38,773 nt of DNA from Pirellulales bacterium (GTDB lineage: Bacteria > Planctomycetota > Planctomycetia > Pirellulales > JAICIG01): the NCBI GenBank assembly GCA_035533075.1, contig DATLUO010000001.1:1-38773 (forward strand), written 5' to 3'. Positions 29,580 through 38,773 of the stretch are shown piece by piece. Made by a program: the position numbers and the translations under genes. The first letter of the stretch is position 1; every line of letters starts with the position of its first letter. Below the pieces are notes generated by a model. It did not search any database, was not told the origin of the DNA, and saw nothing but the letters and a program-made list of their open reading frames with translations.

Positions 29580-30740
29580 TCACCCCGTTCGTTCGCCGCT
29601 CGGCTCCTCAGCCGGCATAAAGTAGTCCTTGAGCTTCTCGAAAAAGCTCTTGCGATGCGCGCTCACATTCGCCCGCTCCTCCTCGGCCAACTCTCGCAGC
29701 AACTCTTCTTGCCGCGGCGTCAACGTCTTAGGCACTTCCAGGCTGACCTGCACCAGCAGATCGCCCTGGCCGCGTTGTCTTGGATCTGGCATGCCGCGGC
29801 CACGCAAGCGGAACACGTCGCCCGGCTGCGTGCCCGGAGGTATGTCCAACTCCTCGCGGCCGTCGAGCGTGGGCACGTCGATCTTCGAGCCCAGCGTCGC
29901 CTGCGAATAAGTAAGCGGGATCTGACACACCAGATGCTGCCCCTCGCGATGAAAGAGCGAATGTTCCTTCACCGTGATGAAGCAGTAGCAGTCGCCCGGC
30001 GTGCCGCCCTCGGCGCTCTGATTGCCTTCGCCGCCCAAACGCAACCGCGTGTCGTTGTCGACGCCCGGCGGAATGCGGACCTCGCGTTCCACCCTACGCC
30101 GCATCTGTCCCTCGCCACGGCAGGCCGGGCAAGGTTCTTTGATCGTGCTGCCGGCGCCGCGGCAGGCCGGACACGTCGTTTGCACGCGGAAGATGCCGGT
30201 GGTCTGGATCACTTGCCCTTGGCCGCCGCAATAGCGGCATTTTTCGGGCTTCGTTCCGGGCTTGGCCCCCGAGCCGCGGCACTCTTCGCAGCGTTCCAGA
30301 CGCTCCAAGCGGATCTTCTTGGTCGCGCCGCGTGCCGCCTCCAGCAGGTCGAGCGTGACGTCGGCCCGCACGTCGCTGCCGCGGCGTGCGCGTCGTCCAC
30401 GTCCCCGCCGCCCGCCGCCGAAAATCTCGCCGAACAGCCCTTCGCCGAAAATGTCGCCAAAGGCCTCGAAGACATCGTTCACGTCGGTGAAGTGCGGGGC
30501 GCCACCCGGCCCCTCGACGCCGGCGTGCCCGTAGCGATCGTAACGGGCGCGCTTGTCCGGGTCGCTGAGCACCTCGAACGCCTCGGCGCACTCTTTGAAG
30601 CGGGCCACCGCCTCTTCGTTGCCCGGATTCTTATCGGGATGGTACTGGATCGCCAGCTTGCGATAGGCGGCCGCGATCTCCTTGTCGGAGACCGTTCGCG
30701 CGACCCCCAGCACCTCATAGTAATCGCGTTTGCCTGCCAT
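29580..30740 (-). CDS. dnaJ: Chaperone protein DnaJ
   Basis: A 386-residue type I Hsp40. J-domain at 1-70 with HPD at 34-36, which stimulates DnaK ATPase; Gly/Phe-rich and basic linker (DIFGEGLFGEIFGGG, then GRRGRGRRARR); zinc-finger domain with four CxxCxGxG repeats (CEECRGSG, CRYCGGQG, CPACRGAG, CPACRGEG); C-terminal substrate-binding domain (GDLLVQVSLEVPKTLT). I chose ATG 30740 (MAGKRDYYEV), the family's usual start; ATG at 30749 lies three codons earlier. It is first in a unit with grpE, fmdB and yacG. Confidence 0.97.
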   Translation of the reverse strand: MAGKRDYYEVLGVARTVSDKEIAAAYRKLAIQYHPDKNPGNEEAVARFKECAEAFEVLSDPDKRARYDRYGHAGVEGPGGAPHFTDVNDVFEAFGDIFGEGLFGEIFGGGRRGRGRRARRGSDVRADVTLDLLEAARGATKKIRLERLERCEECRGSGAKPGTKPEKCRYCGGQGQVIQTTGIFRVQTTCPACRGAGSTIKEPCPACRGEGQMRRRVEREVRIPPGVDNDTRLRLGGEGNQSAEGGTPGDCYCFITVKEHSLFHREGQHLVCQIPLTYSQATLGSKIDVPTLDGREELDIPPGTQPGDVFRLRGRGMPDPRQRGQGDLLVQVSLEVPKTLTPRQEELLRELAEEERANVSAHRKSFFEKLKDYFMPAEEPSGERTG

Positions 30741-30781
30741 AGTCACCATAGCTGTCGCCGGTCGCTCTTATCCGTTCCTGA

Positions 30782-31126: not shown

Positions 31127-32746
31127 TCAGCGGACAGATCCCTCAATCCGCGTCTTTTTCTTGTCGTCCTTGTCGAAGTTCGTGACCATGGCCTCGGTGG
31201 TGAGCATCAGGGCCGCGATGCTGGCCGCGTTGCTCAAGGCGCTGCGGACCACCTTCAACGGGTCGATGATGCCCGCCTTGTACATATCGACGTACTCGGC
31301 CTTGTTGGCGTCGTAACCCACGTTGACCGGCTTGCGGCTGATCTCGTCGGCCACAACCGAGCCGTCGATGCCGCAGTTGTCGACAATCTGCTTCATCGGT
31401 GCGGCCAAGGCATGCAGCACGATATCGACGCCGATCTTCTCGTCGCCCTTGGCGCTGCCGCGGGCCTTTTCGATGGCCTCTTTGCAGCGCAGCAGGGCCA
31501 CGCCGCCGCCGGGCAAAATGCCCTCTTCCACCGCCGCGCGCGTGGCGTGCAGGGCGTCTTCGACGCGGGCCTTCTTCTGCTTCATGTCGGCCTCGCTGCT
31601 GGCCCCCACCGAAATGATGGCCACGCCGCCGGTCAGCTTGGCCAGACGCTCTTGGAACTTCTCCCGATCGTACTCGCTCTCGGTGTCCTCGATCTGGTTG
31701 CGAATCTGCTGGATGCGGTTCTTGATTTCATCCTGCTTGCCGGCGCCTTGCACGATCGTCGTGTCGTTCTTGTCGACCGTGATCTGCTTGGCGCGGCCGA
31801 GCTGACCGATCTCCAGGTTCTCCAGCTTGATGCCCAGATCCTCGCTGATCAGCGTGCCGCCGGTGAGCACCGCCAGGTCGCCCAGCATCGCCTTGCGGCG
31901 GTCGCCGAAACCGGGGGCCTTCACCGCGCAGATATTGAGGATGCCGCGGAGCTTGTTCACCACCAACGTCGTCAGGGCGTCGCCCTCCACGTCTTCGGCG
32001 ATGATCAACAGCGGCTTGCCCGTCTGGCTCACCTTCTCCAAAATCGGAATCAGGTCGCGCAGGCTGCCGATCTTCTTCTCGTGAATCAGGATGAAGGCGT
32101 CGTTGAGCAGGCAATCCATCTCGGCCGGACGGTTGATGAAGTACGGCGAAATGTAGCCTTTGTCGAACTGCATCCCTTCCACCAGCTCGAGCGTGGTCTC
32201 GGTGGCCTTGCCTTCCTCGACGGTGATCACGCCGTCTTTGCCCACCTTCTCCATCGCGTCGGCCAAAAGATTGCCGATGTCGGTGTCGTTGTTGGCGCTG
32301 ATGGAGCCGACCTGGGCGATCTCGGCCTTGCTCGAAACCGGCTTGGCCATGCTCTTGAGCTGCTCGATGGCCGCATCAACGGCCTTCTCGATGCCTCGCC
32401 GCACCGCCATGGGATTGCTGCCGGCGGCGATGTTGCGGGTGCCTTCCTTGAAGATGGCACGGGCCAGCACGGTCGCCGTGGTGGTGCCGTCGCCCGCCAC
32501 GTCGGAAGTTTTGGAGGCCACTTCGTTCACGAGCTTGGCGCCCATATTCTCGAAGCGGTCTTCCAGCTCGACCTCTTTGCTGACGGTCACGCCGTCTTTG
32601 GTCACGGTCGGACCGCCGAACGACTTGTCGATAATCACATTGCGGCCCGTCGGTCCCATGGTGATGGCGACCGCATCGGCCAGTTTTTCCACACCCTTGA
32701 GCATTTTCGCTCGGGCGCTGTCTTCGAAGAGTAATTGCTTGGGCAC
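31127..32746 (-). CDS. groEL: Chaperonin GroEL, copy 1 (no GGM tail)
   Basis: A 539-residue Hsp60 with all core motifs: [40 protein letters not shown] (ATP site), [25 protein letters not shown] and [14 protein letters not shown]. The start is GTG at 32746 with AAGGAA upstream. The C-terminus ends in [14 protein letters not shown] and lacks the Gly-Gly-Met repeats that normally line the ring cavity, unlike the second copy. It is the last gene of groEL2-groES-groEL1. Divergent copies of this kind often take specialised clients. Confidence 0.96.
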
Positions 32747-33344: not shown

Positions 33345-35039
33345 TTACATCCCCATGTCTCCCATTCCCATGCCACCCATGCCACCCATTCCGCCCATGC
33401 CACCACCCATTCCACCCATGCCGTGGTCGTGGTGGCCGCCCGCCTCAGGCTCTTCTTCCTTGGGAATCTCGGTCACGAGCGACTCGGTGGTCAACATCAG
33501 CGAAGCCACGCTGGCCGCGTTTTGCAAGGCGGTGCGGACCACCTTGGCCGGGTCGATGATGCCCGCGGCGACCAGGTCGGTGTAGGTGCCCTTGTCGGCG
33601 TCGTAGCCTTCGTTCTTGTTCTTCAACTGGCGGACGCGATTGACGACCACGGCACCGTCGGCGCCCGCGTTGTCGGCGATGCAACGCAAGGGATAGTCGA
33701 GCACGTTTTTGACGATGCGGGCACCGAGCAGCTCATCGCCTTCCAGGTCGAGTTTCTCCAGCGACTTCTCGCTGCGAATCAGGGCCACGCCGCCGCCGGG
33801 CACAATCCCTTCTTCCAGCGCGGCTTGCACGGCCGACTTGGCGTCTTCGAGCAAGTGCTTGCGCTCTTTCATCTCGGTCTCGGTGGCGGCGCCACAGTTG
33901 ATCTGGGCCACGCCGCCCGAAAGCTTGGCCAGCCGCTCTTGCAGCTTCTCGCGATCGTACTCGCTGTCCGTCACCTCGATTTCGCGGCGAATCTGCTCGG
34001 CGCGGCCGTCGATGTCGGCCTTTTTGCCGGCGCCTTCGATGATCGTCGTGTTCTCGGCGTTGATGATGACCTTCTTGGCCCGGCCCAGGTCGGTCAGCTT
34101 GACCGAGTCGAGCGAGATGCCGAGATCCTTGAAGATGGCCGTGCCCGCGGTGAGCGTGGCAATATCGCCCAGCATCGCCTTGCGACGGTCGCCGTAGCCG
34201 GGGGCCTTGACGGCACAGGCACTGAGAATGCCCCGCATCTTGTTGACCACCAGCGTGGCCAACGCTTCGCCTTCGAGATCCTCGGCGATGACCAGCAGGG
34301 GCTTGTTGGCCTTGCTGATCGCCTCCAGCAGCGGAACGAGGTTCTTGGCGTTCGAGATCTTCTCTTCGTAGATCAGGATGTAGCAGTTCTCCAGCTCGAC
34401 CGTTTGATCGTCCTGGTTGGTGACGAAGTGCGGCGAAAGGTAGCCGCGATCGAACTGCATGCCTTCGACCACTTCAACGGTCGTCTCGGACTGCCGGCCC
34501 TCCTCAATGGTAATCACGCCGTCTTTGCCGACCTTCAAGAAGGCGTCGGAGAGCACGTCACCGATGCTGGGATCGTTGTTGCCGGCGATGGTGGCGATTT
34601 GCCGCAGCTCGGTCTTGTTCTTTTCGTTGATGGGCGTGGCCAACTTGGCGACCGCCTCGACGACCCGGGCCGTGGCCTTCGTGATGCCTCGCGAGAGGGC
34701 CATCGGATCGGCCCCGGCGGCGATCATCTTCAGACCTTCGCGAAAGATGGCTTCGGCCAGCACGGTGGCCGTGGTGGTGCCGTCGCCGGCCACGTCGTTG
34801 GTCTTGCTGGCGGCTTCCTTGACGAGCTGGGCGCCCAGGTTCTCGAAAGGATCGTCCAGTTCGATGTCTTCGGCGACGGTGACGCCGTCTTTGGTTACCT
34901 TGGGCGAACCCCAACCTTTGTCGAGCACGGCGTTGCGGCCGCGGGGGCCGAGGGTGCTGCTGACCGCACGGGCCAACTTCGAGGCGCCGGCCAACAGCGG
35001 CTGCCGTGCTTCGTCATCAAAGACCATCTGCTTTGCCAC
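33345..35039 (-). CDS. groEL: Chaperonin GroEL, copy 2 (His/Gly/Met tail)
   Basis: A 564-residue Hsp60 with motifs [73 protein letters not shown] and [14 protein letters not shown]. It ends in a His- and Gly/Met-rich tail ([16 protein letters not shown] and further GGM repeats), as in canonical GroEL but with extra histidines that could bind metal. The GTG start at 35039 has a strong AGGAGG 9 nt upstream. It opens the cluster, and its sequence differs from copy 1 throughout, so the duplication is old. Confidence 0.97.
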
Positions 35040-36164: not shown

Positions 36165-36860
36165 ATGGGAAGACCACATCGAGCTAGCGAAGGCGGGTTC
36201 GTCTACCACGTGCTGAACCGTGGCAACGCGGGCATGACCGTGTTCGACGATCAGGGCGACTTCGATGCCTTCGAGAAAGTTTTGGCCGAGGCGGTCGAGC
36301 GGACCGACACGCGACTGCTGGCCTATTGCCTGCTGCCAAACCACTGGCACTTGCTCGTCTGGCCGCGGAAGAAAGGCGAACTCTCGCAGTTTGTCCGCTG
36401 GCTCACCCTGACCCATACGCAGCGGTGGCACGCGCATCGGCCCGACGTCGGCAATGGGCACGTCTATCAAGGCCGGTTCAAATCGTTCCCCGTTCAGGAG
36501 GACGAGCATTTCTACGCGGTCGCGCGGCACGTGGAGCGGAACGCCTTGCGCGCGAACCTCGTGCCTCGCGCCGAGGCGTGGCCCTGGTGTAGCCTGTACC
36601 GCTGGCTGCGCGGCACGGCCGACGACAAGCCCGTCCTAGCCTCTTGGCCCCTCCGGCGTAAATCTGGCTGGGTGGAATGGGTCAATGCCCCACCGAACGA
36701 GGCGGAGTTGACCGCGATTCGCCGCAGCGTGGAACGCGGCAACCCCTATGGAAGCGAGTCGTGGAATGAACGCACGATCCGGCGGCTCGGATTAGAATTG
36801 ACCATCCGCCCCCGCGGTCGCCCAAGAAAGGAGCCGGCAGCCCATCAAAGCGGTTCCTGA
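36165..36860 (+). CDS. REP-associated tyrosine transposase (RAYT)
   Basis: A 231-residue Y1/HUH-family enzyme related to IS200/IS605 transposases, which nicks single-stranded REP hairpins. The HUH pair is His60 and His62 in LLPNHWHLLVWP; the likely catalytic tyrosine is Tyr117 in HFYAVARHVERNALRA. N-terminal YHVLNRGN and the GHVYQGRFKSFPVQ segment are typical of the group. The gene is intact and single, without the terminal structures of a full IS, and is flanked by inverse copies of AAAAGGTGTC..GGAACCG, its probable target hairpins. A 48-bp scrap of a sister copy lies at 13428-13475. Confidence 0.93.
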   Translation: MGRPHRASEGGFVYHVLNRGNAGMTVFDDQGDFDAFEKVLAEAVERTDTRLLAYCLLPNHWHLLVWPRKKGELSQFVRWLTLTHTQRWHAHRPDVGNGHVYQGRFKSFPVQEDEHFYAVARHVERNALRANLVPRAEAWPWCSLYRWLRGTADDKPVLASWPLRRKSGWVEWVNAPPNEAELTAIRRSVERGNPYGSESWNERTIRRLGLELTIRPRGRPRKEPAAHQSGS

Positions 36861-38104: not shown

Positions 38105-38176
38105 AACGCGCGCGGAGAGGGAATAATAAAGGGCCTTCCCTACGCCTCGAAAGCGGTCGAGCAGCAATGCCTTGAT

Positions 38177-38247
38177 CGGGGATCGGCTAACGGTAGGCTG
38201 CCTGGCTTTGAACCAGGTGATGGAGGTTCAAGTCCTTCTCCCCGAAC
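38177..38247 (+). tRNA. tRNA-Gln (TTG)
   Basis: Acceptor TCGGGGA/TCCCCGA; anticodon arm CCTGG-CTTTGAA-CCAGG with anticodon TTG; T-arm GGAGG-TTCAAGT-CCTTC. No CCA is encoded. It is the first of a run of close-set tRNA genes. Confidence 0.88.
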
Positions 38248-38282: not shown

Positions 38283-38357
38283 TCCGGGGCAGTTGCTGCT
38301 GGTAGTGATGCCTGGCTCTGAACCAGGAGGTCGTTGGTTCGATTCCAACCCCCGGAA
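38283..38357 (+). tRNA. tRNA-Gln (CTG)
   Basis: Acceptor TCCGGGG/CCCCGGA; anticodon arm CCTGG-CTCTGAA-CCAGG with anticodon CTG; T-arm GTTGG-TTCGATT-CCAAC. The D-stem is weak, with several wobble pairs. No encoded CCA. Confidence 0.85.
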
Positions 38358-38370
38358 CTTTTTGACAGAC

Positions 38371-38443
38371 AGTCCCGTGGCCTAGCAGCGAAGGCAGCAC
38401 CCTTACAAGGTGACGATCGACAGTGCGAGTCTGTCCGGGACTA
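38371..38443 (+). tRNA. tRNA-Val (TAC), atypical loops
   Basis: Acceptor AGTCCCG/CGGGACT; D-stem GCCT/AGGC; anticodon loop CTTACAA with TAC; T-stem GACAG/CTGTC. The T-loop is TGCGAGT, with G in place of the near-universal U at position 55, and the D-loop AGCAGCGA has no GG pair. No encoded CCA. Confidence 0.8.
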
Positions 38444-38459
38444 CTTCGAACAGCGACGC

Positions 38460-38533
38460 GTCCCGGTACGCCAACAGGCAGAGCGGCTTGGCTTAAACCC
38501 AAGTGTTTGCGGGTTCGACTCCCGCCCGGCGCA
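38460..38533 (+). tRNA. tRNA with TAA anticodon, class I shape (Leu codon)
   Basis: Acceptor GTCCCGG/CCGGCGC (one mismatch and one wobble); anticodon arm CTTGG-CTTAAAC-CCAAG with TAA; T-arm GCGGG-TTCGACT-CCCGC. The variable loop is only TGTTT (5 nt), whereas bacterial tRNA-Leu has a long variable arm. The D-arm (GCCAACAGGCAGAGCGG) recalls tRNAs of phage and plasmid arrays. The charged amino acid is uncertain. Confidence 0.78.
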
Positions 38534-38549
38534 CTCGAAAACACAACTT

Positions 38550-38622
38550 GGCCCGTTCGTCTATCGGTTCAGGACACGAGCCCCTCAAGCTCGGAAGGCG
38601 GGTTCGACTCCCGCACGGGTCG
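38550..38622 (+). tRNA. tRNA-Glu (CTC)
   Basis: Acceptor GGCCCGT/ACGGGTC; D-stem GTCT/AGGAC; anticodon arm CGAGC-CCCTCAA-GCTCG with CTC; T-arm GCGGG-TTCGACT-CCCGC. It is canonical. No encoded CCA. Confidence 0.9.
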
Positions 38623-38626
38623 CTTT

Positions 38627-38710
38627 GGCCAGGTGGCGCAACTGGAAGACGCACGACGCTCAGAACGTCGGCCCCTCGTGGGCGTGGGAGTTCGAGTCTC
38701 CCCTTGGTCA
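38627..38710 (+). tRNA. tRNA-Leu (CAG)
   Basis: Acceptor GGCCAGG/CTTGGTC; anticodon arm GACG-CTCAGAA-CGTC with CAG; a long variable arm (about 15 nt) as expected for Leu; T-arm GGGAG-TTCGAGT-CTCCC. It lies 4 nt after tRNA-Glu. Confidence 0.9.
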
Positions 38711-38713
38711 CTT

Positions 38714-38773
38714 TGACGCAGGTGGGCCAGTGCTCAGTGGAGCCTCATAAGCTCCGCGCGCCGGGTGCGACTC
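38714..38773 (+). tRNA. tRNA-Met (CAT), cut by window end
   Basis: Anticodon arm GGAGC-CTCATAA-GCTCC with CAT at 38746-38748; variable loop GCGCG; T-stem begins CCGGG and the T-loop is TGCGACT, again with G at position 55. The 3' acceptor strand is outside the window. The D-arm is hard to fold. Ile (lysidine) or initiator identity is possible. Confidence 0.7.

Follow-up and report, generated by a model that had tools for sequence, protein, structure and literature searches.

Does a bacterial tRNA with a leucine anticodon but no long variable arm signal that UUA is read as another amino acid, or does it belong to a genuine class of leucine tRNAs? The question is raised by a gene close to the end of a 38,773-nt stretch of DNA from a Pirellulales bacterium (the window), which is the entire contig C1 of a draft genome assembled into 296 contigs (8.54 Mb). 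ARAGORN placed a tRNA-Leu(taa) at 38460-38534 on the forward strand, and the Rfam RF00005 match at 38460-38533 scored 43.8 bits versus a gathering score of 29, as expected of a member of the tRNA family. The 74-nt gene ends in A73 with no encoded CCA, and both ARAGORN (anticodon at position 35) and a cloverleaf fit assign the TAA (UAA) anticodon to 38494-38496. Its D arm region (38467-38486) has a Leu-type layout, with the 3-bp stem CGC/GCG, A14, A15, G18G19 and A20a, while the cloverleaf fit gave a variable loop of only 5 nt, TGTTT (38504-38508), the last base of which, U48, forms the A15-U48 pair. With 5 nt against the at least 10 nt that define class II, this tRNA is not to be filed as a canonical class II tRNA-Leu. 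The initial annotation had described a UAA tRNA whose variable loop is 5 nt long, 94 nt away from a CAG tRNA-Leu with a long arm, an arrangement that it rightly treated as unusual in a bacterium; the CAG gene, at 38627-38710, indeed has a 15-nt variable region. The annotation had also named a pseudogene score below cutoff and an overlooked long arm as ways in which the observation might fail. The score exceeds the cutoff, and although Leu is the best isotype (see below), the variable loop is 5 nt only. On the usual pseudogene criteria, the gene scores above cutoff and has one acceptor mismatch, and a promoter of its own was not seen in the window. Its acceptor stem deviates from a standard 7-bp stem by a C3-C70 mismatch and a U2-G71 wobble, and the 3-70 mismatch is unique to the window copy among 29 aligned Leu-UAA sequences.

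The final 600 bases of the window are a tRNA array that extends past the contig end. On the forward strand, it contains tRNA-Gln(UUG) (38176-38246), tRNA-Gln(CUG) (38283-38357; the ARAGORN end at 38358 is one base extra), tRNA-Val(UAC) (38371-38443), the Leu-UAA gene, tRNA-Glu(CUC) (38550-38622), the class II tRNA-Leu(CAG) and the start of tRNA-Met(CAU) (approximately 38716, cut by the contig end at 38773), the sequence of which goes on in contig C135. ARAGORN identified Gln-CUG, and ARAGORN and Rfam both identified Gln-UUG, Val-UAC, Glu-CUC and Leu-CAG, the last of which was also resolved by the cloverleaf fit. The window array is truncated at its 5' end, where 32 nt of an array tRNA-Ser(CGA) persist (38143-38174) with exactly the sequence seen on contig C52 of the same genome. 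The order Val-UAC, Leu-UAA, Glu-CUC corresponds to a conserved slot in related arrays, but the window array lacks Leu-UAG, Asp, Leu-CAA and Tyr and is a remnant. The 268 bases from 38506 to 38773 are 97.4% identical to C52 starting inside its Tyr-GUA gene, and the 3' acceptor strand and A73 of the window tRNA (38526-38533), the source of the 3-70 mismatch, are identical to this Tyr-GUA; the 5' part of the window tRNA is of the Leu-UAA type. From these alignments, the window copy appears to be the product of a Leu-UAA slot fused with a Tyr-GUA slot, which would explain the C3-C70 mismatch, and it is probably at best weakly functional. Since its acceptor stem is damaged, poor decoding, which the initial annotation had proposed as one outcome, is possible for this copy.

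Other array copies in this genome are also broken, with acceptor mismatches in Leu-UAA and in the Leu-UAG of C52 (two), hairpin inserts in several tRNAs of contig C74, and truncated copies. Contigs C1, C52 and C135 have an exact 141-base end in common, which we interpret as a probable assembly-graph junction. The 5' end of the C52 Leu-UAG (L035:510-586) matches array Gln-UUG, and with its two acceptor mismatches this gene looks like a second fusion; taken together with the window copy, it suggests that tRNA-to-tRNA recombination is frequent in these arrays. Several class I isotypes among the array tRNAs (Gly-UCC, Lys-UUU, Ile-GAU and Pro-UGG) have the hairpin element, GACCACCGCTGCGCGGCGGTG, in their variable region, and it was also observed inside the Phe and Ser genes of C74. 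Its copies lie in loci L036 (C74) and L035 (C52), e.g. at C74:866-886, 969-989, 1291-1311, 709-729 and 76-96 and at C52:618-638, and all six copies detected in the whole 8.5-Mb genome with at most two mismatches fall in arrays. Elsewhere in the window, a Y1 (IS200-like) transposase ORF is encoded on the forward strand at 36165-36860, ~1.3 kb upstream of the array, and two adjacent Cpn60 chaperonin genes (31127-32746 and 33345-35039) lie beside a DnaJ gene (29580-30749), all three on the reverse strand. Three ORFs just upstream of the array had no reliable Pfam or PHROGs match.

Array DNA from C52 matched 24 of 30 genomes, its own included, at E ≤ 0.001, a count in which the weak matches may be ordinary tRNAs, and a cluster of at least six ARAGORN tRNAs was present in 13 of the 14 relatives for which stretches were fetched. 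The genes recur in the order Phe, Glu-UUC, Pro-UGG, Ile-GAU, Lys-UUU, Ile-UAU, Lys-CUU, Thr-CGU, Gly-GCC, Pro-CGG, Asn, Ser-CGA, Gly-UCC, Gln-UUG, Gln-CUG, Val-UAC, Leu-UAA, Leu-UAG, Asp, Leu-CAA, Tyr, Glu-CUC, Leu-CAG, Met, Leu-GAG, followed by His, Trp, Arg and Cys. The array amounts to a second, divergent and nearly complete tRNA set spanning nearly all isotypes, and the largest (L180) has 42 tRNAs. A D-arm pattern holding no anticodon information retrieved 113 stretches (80 as loci) from a named collection, the titles of which were mostly Planctomycetota, and those mostly tRNA arrays; records of Rhodopirellula, Stieleria and Lacipirellula were among them. For 62 of the 80 loci, the pattern fell inside ARAGORN tRNAs, 84 in total, of which 80 have Leu anticodons. 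Phylum-wide, the exact pattern occurred in 7 of 392 genomes, a figure too strict to serve as prevalence because many class I Leu tRNAs differ from the pattern at one base or more. Two further features of the arrays were observed. An Ile tRNA with a UAU anticodon is conserved in them (L035, L089-L094 and many named loci) and has no counterpart among the 48 dispersed tRNAs retrieved for the genome of the window. Several genomes also have array tRNA-Ala(GGC) and tRNA-Ala(CGC) genes that measure 88-89 nt and possess a long variable arm (L037, which is the end of C135, L091 and L107), the reverse of the Leu case.

We surveyed variable loops in 73 array loci with 1360 tRNAs, 53 of these loci having been picked by the class I Leu D-arm pattern and the titles of three (L118, L178 and L181) naming no phylum. 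From the loop, identity-element and discriminator counts we dropped loci with fewer than six fitted tRNAs (including L037), as well as L119 and L136 (not from planctomycetes), L149 (from Nostoc) and L180 (on the contig already represented by L091), and loops of exactly 9 nt (11 Leu) were counted neither as short nor as long. The variable loop was 5 nt in 31/31 Leu-UAA called by ARAGORN and 5-6 nt in 30/30 Leu-UAG, and it was 8 nt or less in 41/43 Leu-GAG, 36/52 Leu-CAA and 15/44 Leu-CAG. The long arm was kept by all 88 Ser and all 21 Tyr tRNAs. The same picture emerged from the 20 loci that had been selected only by array DNA, with short Leu tRNAs in 6/6 (UAA), 7/7 (UAG), 7/7 (GAG), 6/8 (CAA) and 2/8 (CAG) cases and long arms in 20/20 Ser and 4/4 Tyr. 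Within arrays, the arm has been lost by Leu and never by Ser or Tyr. When 29 of the 31 Leu-UAA sequences were aligned (L145 and L153 were omitted, their sequence being equal to that of L124), 98.4% of stem cells were paired and double changes occurred in 15 of the 20 pairs, a level reached by none of 500 shuffles. The short loop seen in the window is thus not a chance event.

To assign an amino acid identity to the window tRNA, we used home-made position profiles with the anticodon masked as a substitute for the tRNAscan-SE isotype models; the training set consisted of array tRNAs, that is, of arrays of the same family as the window tRNA. With its own genome left out, this classifier gave Leu 79.8 versus Glu 35.0 bits, and Leu still scored 75.9 bits when every Leu-UAA was taken out of training. 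Without the acceptor stem, the scores were Leu 76.4 versus Ala 37.1. The classifier called 162 of 165 short-loop array Leu tRNAs Leu, assigning the other three to Ile, and called none of 1028 non-Leu tRNAs Leu. In a raw-identity comparison with the genome's 48 dispersed tRNAs, Trp and Leu-CAA tie at 42 of 66 positions each; we discarded this nearest-neighbour comparison as an isotype test, as it does not discriminate, and the Leu assignment rests on the identity elements and the array family rather than on similarity to housekeeping tRNA-Leu. The available portion of PMC9976931 states that E. coli tRNA-Leu needs A73, A15-U48, G18G19 and A20a, that E. coli variants deprived of the long arm are still charged, and that A73 and A14 are named for human mitochondrial tRNA-Leu as for E. 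coli. For E. coli, this contradicts the premise of the initial annotation that bacterial LeuRS relies on the long arm. The elements A73, A14, A15-U48, G18G19 and A20a are all present in the window tRNA, and the complete set of five is shared by 105 of 154 class I Leu tRNAs of the arrays versus 88 of 1050 other array tRNAs. At least one is missing in the other 49, many of them Leu-UAG and Leu-CAG, which in the arrays often have T15 or C15 plus an irregular D stem; A73 is present in 199 of 201 array Leu tRNAs. Over all isotypes, 1262 of 1358 array tRNAs have the discriminator of the dispersed set and 96 do not. Each of 20 genomes, including that of the window, encodes a single LeuRS above the TIGR00396 cutoff. 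A second, adapted LeuRS was looked for and not found in these 20 genomes, the lower TIGR00396 matches being partial, below cutoff and taken for related synthetases. The dispersed set contains six class II tRNA-Leu genes, reading with UAA, CAA, UAG, CAG and GAG anticodons, that have variable regions of 13-17 nt; as the Leu-UAA among them (17 nt) is class II, the array Leu-UAA is redundant.

Class I Leu tRNAs of the same layout also occur outside the planctomycetes. We found them in Nostoc arrays (L149 and L227), on a M. intracellulare plasmid (L228: Leu-UAG and Leu-UAA), in Acinetobacter phage Acibel004 and the mycobacteriophages Aziz and EniyanLRS, in Plesiocystis and on a Spongiibacteraceae contig. 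A scan of viral contigs yielded 75 loci, with a tRNA at the pattern in 47, of which 44 were Leu-UAA. The other Leu tRNAs of the viral loci were short in 38 cases and long in 29, and the arm was long in 47/47 Ser and 13/13 Tyr. Two further settings were noted among these organisms. A lone class I tRNA-Leu(CAA) is the sole tRNA on the stretches fetched from Streptomonospora and Actinopolymorpha (L117, L131 and L127), and Plesiocystis pacifica (L136) has a cluster of Leu and Arg tRNAs only (Leu-GAG, Arg-ACG, Leu-CAG, Arg-GCG, Arg-CCG and Leu-CAA) in which Leu is class I.

Intact planctomycete arrays have a conserved leader upstream of the Phe gene (L035, L036, L038, L089-L098 and others). In the genome of the window, leaders were located on C52, C74 and C216, and no promoter, leader ORF or terminator was found upstream of the array within the window. 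We examined 37 of 44 leaders; L113 and L183 were too short, L149 is from Nostoc, L180 is a duplicate, and L124, L145 and L153 have another gene order. In 34 of the 37, with stop codons picked by hand from the ORF list, there is a leader ORF ending at GUGA or a similar stop, and in 31 of these 34 it runs for 28-47 codons from an ATG. Frame 0 was open in all 31, versus 5 for frame +1 and 11 for frame +2. The ORF often ends in Leu-Arg-Leu-stop, and its coding signal is moderate, with a median pN/pS of 0.69 over 44 non-independent pairs. A terminator-like hairpin and T run lie downstream of the ORF in 33 of 34 leaders; for the terminator and promoter analysis, L103, L135 and L154 were dropped as they have no typical ORF, and L120 was lost for want of a T run. 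Upstream of the ORF, the motif GAACC-N15/16-CGTCT was present in 24 of 33 leaders versus 0.012 per shuffled leader, and we take it to resemble ECF sigma promoters. A MerR-type promoter with a dyad, an idea that came from the own-genome copies alone, was dropped, since other families keep GAACC-N15/16-CGTCT and not the dyad. Complementarity between the segment around the stop codon and the terminator's 5' arm exceeded the 99th percentile for random segments in 23 of 33 leaders. Own pairs scored 19.6 versus 18.8 for permuted pairs, a value reached in 16 of 10,000 permutations, although the excess beyond general conservation is small. As far as sequence can indicate, these features suggest that the leader has the anatomy of a ribosome-stall attenuator for a backup tRNA set, and that this operon looks conditionally expressed.

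The class I shape led the initial annotation to propose that the UAA tRNA is charged with another amino acid, in which case UUA would be ambiguously decoded whenever the tRNA is expressed. The tie between Trp and Leu in raw identity and the three array Leu tRNAs classified as Ile lean the same way. With the anticodon masked, however, Leu is 40 bits ahead; the window tRNA has neither the G3-U70 pair for AlaRS nor the long arm for SerRS, the other anticodon-independent synthetases, and A73 is almost invariant in array Leu tRNAs. We therefore rejected altered identity, which we regard as scarcely credible. Decay is a better rival, in that the arrays could be laterally acquired, functionless tRNA clusters in which Leu lost its arm by drift, and the broken copies in the genome of the window, with their acceptor mismatches, C74 hairpin inserts and truncations, fit such decay. 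The accessible part of PMC4807772 likewise describes planctomycete tRNA clusters, Ile-UAU included, as degenerate, horizontally acquired and possibly dispensable. Against this, most array tRNAs have a mismatch-free acceptor stem, with 145 of 154 among class I Leu tRNAs and 1052 of 1159 among non-Leu tRNAs (counting ARAGORN-detected tRNAs only). Stem changes are compensatory, gene order and leader are conserved, and drift would have to have removed the arm from Leu and never from Ser or Tyr. We thus consider general decay improbable.

The redundancy of the window tRNA with the housekeeping Leu-UAA could also point to a non-translational role as a regulatory RNA, aminoacyl donor or decoy. A role for one tRNA can hardly explain an array that covers nearly all isotypes with isotype-consistent discriminators, and we judge it very improbable. 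Counter-defence deserves more weight. A second set including an arm-less tRNA-Leu might serve to evade phage-defence nucleases and toxins that cleave or modify tRNAs, instead of being a response to translation stress in general, and the occurrence of the same Leu shape on plasmids and in phage contigs, with the predominance of Leu-UAA at the pattern in the viral loci, fits this reading, as does the argument in the available portion of PMC10264068 that phage tRNAs escape anticodon nucleases. The planctomycete arrays recur across host families, however, and phage genes were not seen beside the window copy, in the flank of that copy only. As the primary purpose of the arrays, we find counter-defence somewhat unlikely, though it is compatible with a stress response, as cleavage of housekeeping tRNAs would itself stall ribosomes.

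The reading that we favour, with a probability of roughly 0.7, is that the window tRNA is a damaged member of a real class I tRNA-Leu family reading UUA, most likely charged with Leu by the single ordinary LeuRS, and that it occupies a slot of a conserved and most likely stress-induced second-set operon. The observation in the initial annotation was true and its recoding inference most likely wrong, the gene being best explained as a damaged copy of a conserved arm-less leucine tRNA. LeuRS would recognize the family through A73 and the D-loop and Levitt elements, the long arm being dispensable. Intact operons would be off during normal growth and on under translation stress, a proposal for which the Anabaena trn operon offers an analogy, since the available text of PMC10272220 describes that operon as silent while Anabaena sp. 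PCC 7120 grows normally and as induced by inhibitors of translation. An ECF-type promoter would start the operon transcript; a ribosome stalling in the short leader ORF would free the stop-codon segment to base-pair with the terminator's 5' arm, which would keep the terminator from folding and allow the array tRNAs to be made. More tentatively, and at less than even odds, many planctomycete families may hold an ECF-started, stall-released spare set that is swapped in when their own tRNAs are depleted or attacked; there and in the phage and plasmid sets of other phyla, Leu rather than Ser or Tyr may have shed the arm because LeuRS alone can spare it and the loss hides the tRNA from attacking enzymes. 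A conserved bacterial family in which Leu alone departs from the long-arm rule, as would be predicted from in vitro studies of E. coli LeuRS, is a natural experiment on tRNA identity, and the leader makes the purpose of redundant tRNA arrays directly testable through terminator read-through under translation stress. For annotation, class I shape in a tRNA-Leu is by itself not a sign of a pseudogene or a reassigned codon.

In the main text of open-licence papers, we found no account of the planctomycete leader and none presenting class I tRNA-Leu as a feature general to arrays and phages. In leader-peptide attenuators of the trp, his and ilv type, the structural genes are preceded by a promoter, a short ORF, hairpins that exclude each other and a Rho-independent terminator. 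The planctomycete leader would share this layout, but its ORF is not a run of codons for one amino acid, and it would control tRNA genes covering nearly all amino acids. The Anabaena trn operon is similarly a redundant multi-tRNA operon, and the Nostoc arrays (L149 and L227) share the class I tRNA-Leu. From what the accessible text of PMC10272220 describes, however, control differs, with the ribbon-helix-helix repressor TrcR acting at the promoter in Anabaena as opposed to the ECF-like promoter, leader ORF and terminator of the planctomycete operon.

Array units of Mycobacterium and its phages, to judge from the portions available of PMC5966550 and PMC12803027, are likewise redundant arrays on chromosomes, plasmids and phages, but differ from the planctomycete arrays in gene order and context. 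The clusters of PMC4807772 are of the same kind and from the same phylum as those studied here, Ile-UAU included; in contrast to the term degenerate, we find gene order, stems, discriminators and a regulatory leader to be conserved, and the part of that paper available to us makes no mention of class I Leu. The closest precedent for the window tRNA is a tRNA-Leu(TAG) with a short variable loop from one mycobacterial cluster, reported in PMC6582537, which is also cluster-encoded and likewise accompanied by a normal class II isoacceptor at a separate site in the genome. That report, in the part accessible, devotes one sentence to one tRNA of mycobacteria, without identity elements, the contrast with Ser and Tyr, planctomycetes, phages or cyanobacteria. 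According to a 2023 review, the arm is absent from animal mitochondrial tRNA-Leu only. Animal mitochondrial tRNA-Leu, as covered in the available portion of PMC9976931, is likewise charged by its LeuRS without a long variable arm; it belongs to an organelle, whereas the tRNAs described here are found in bacterial hosts and have an intact cloverleaf.
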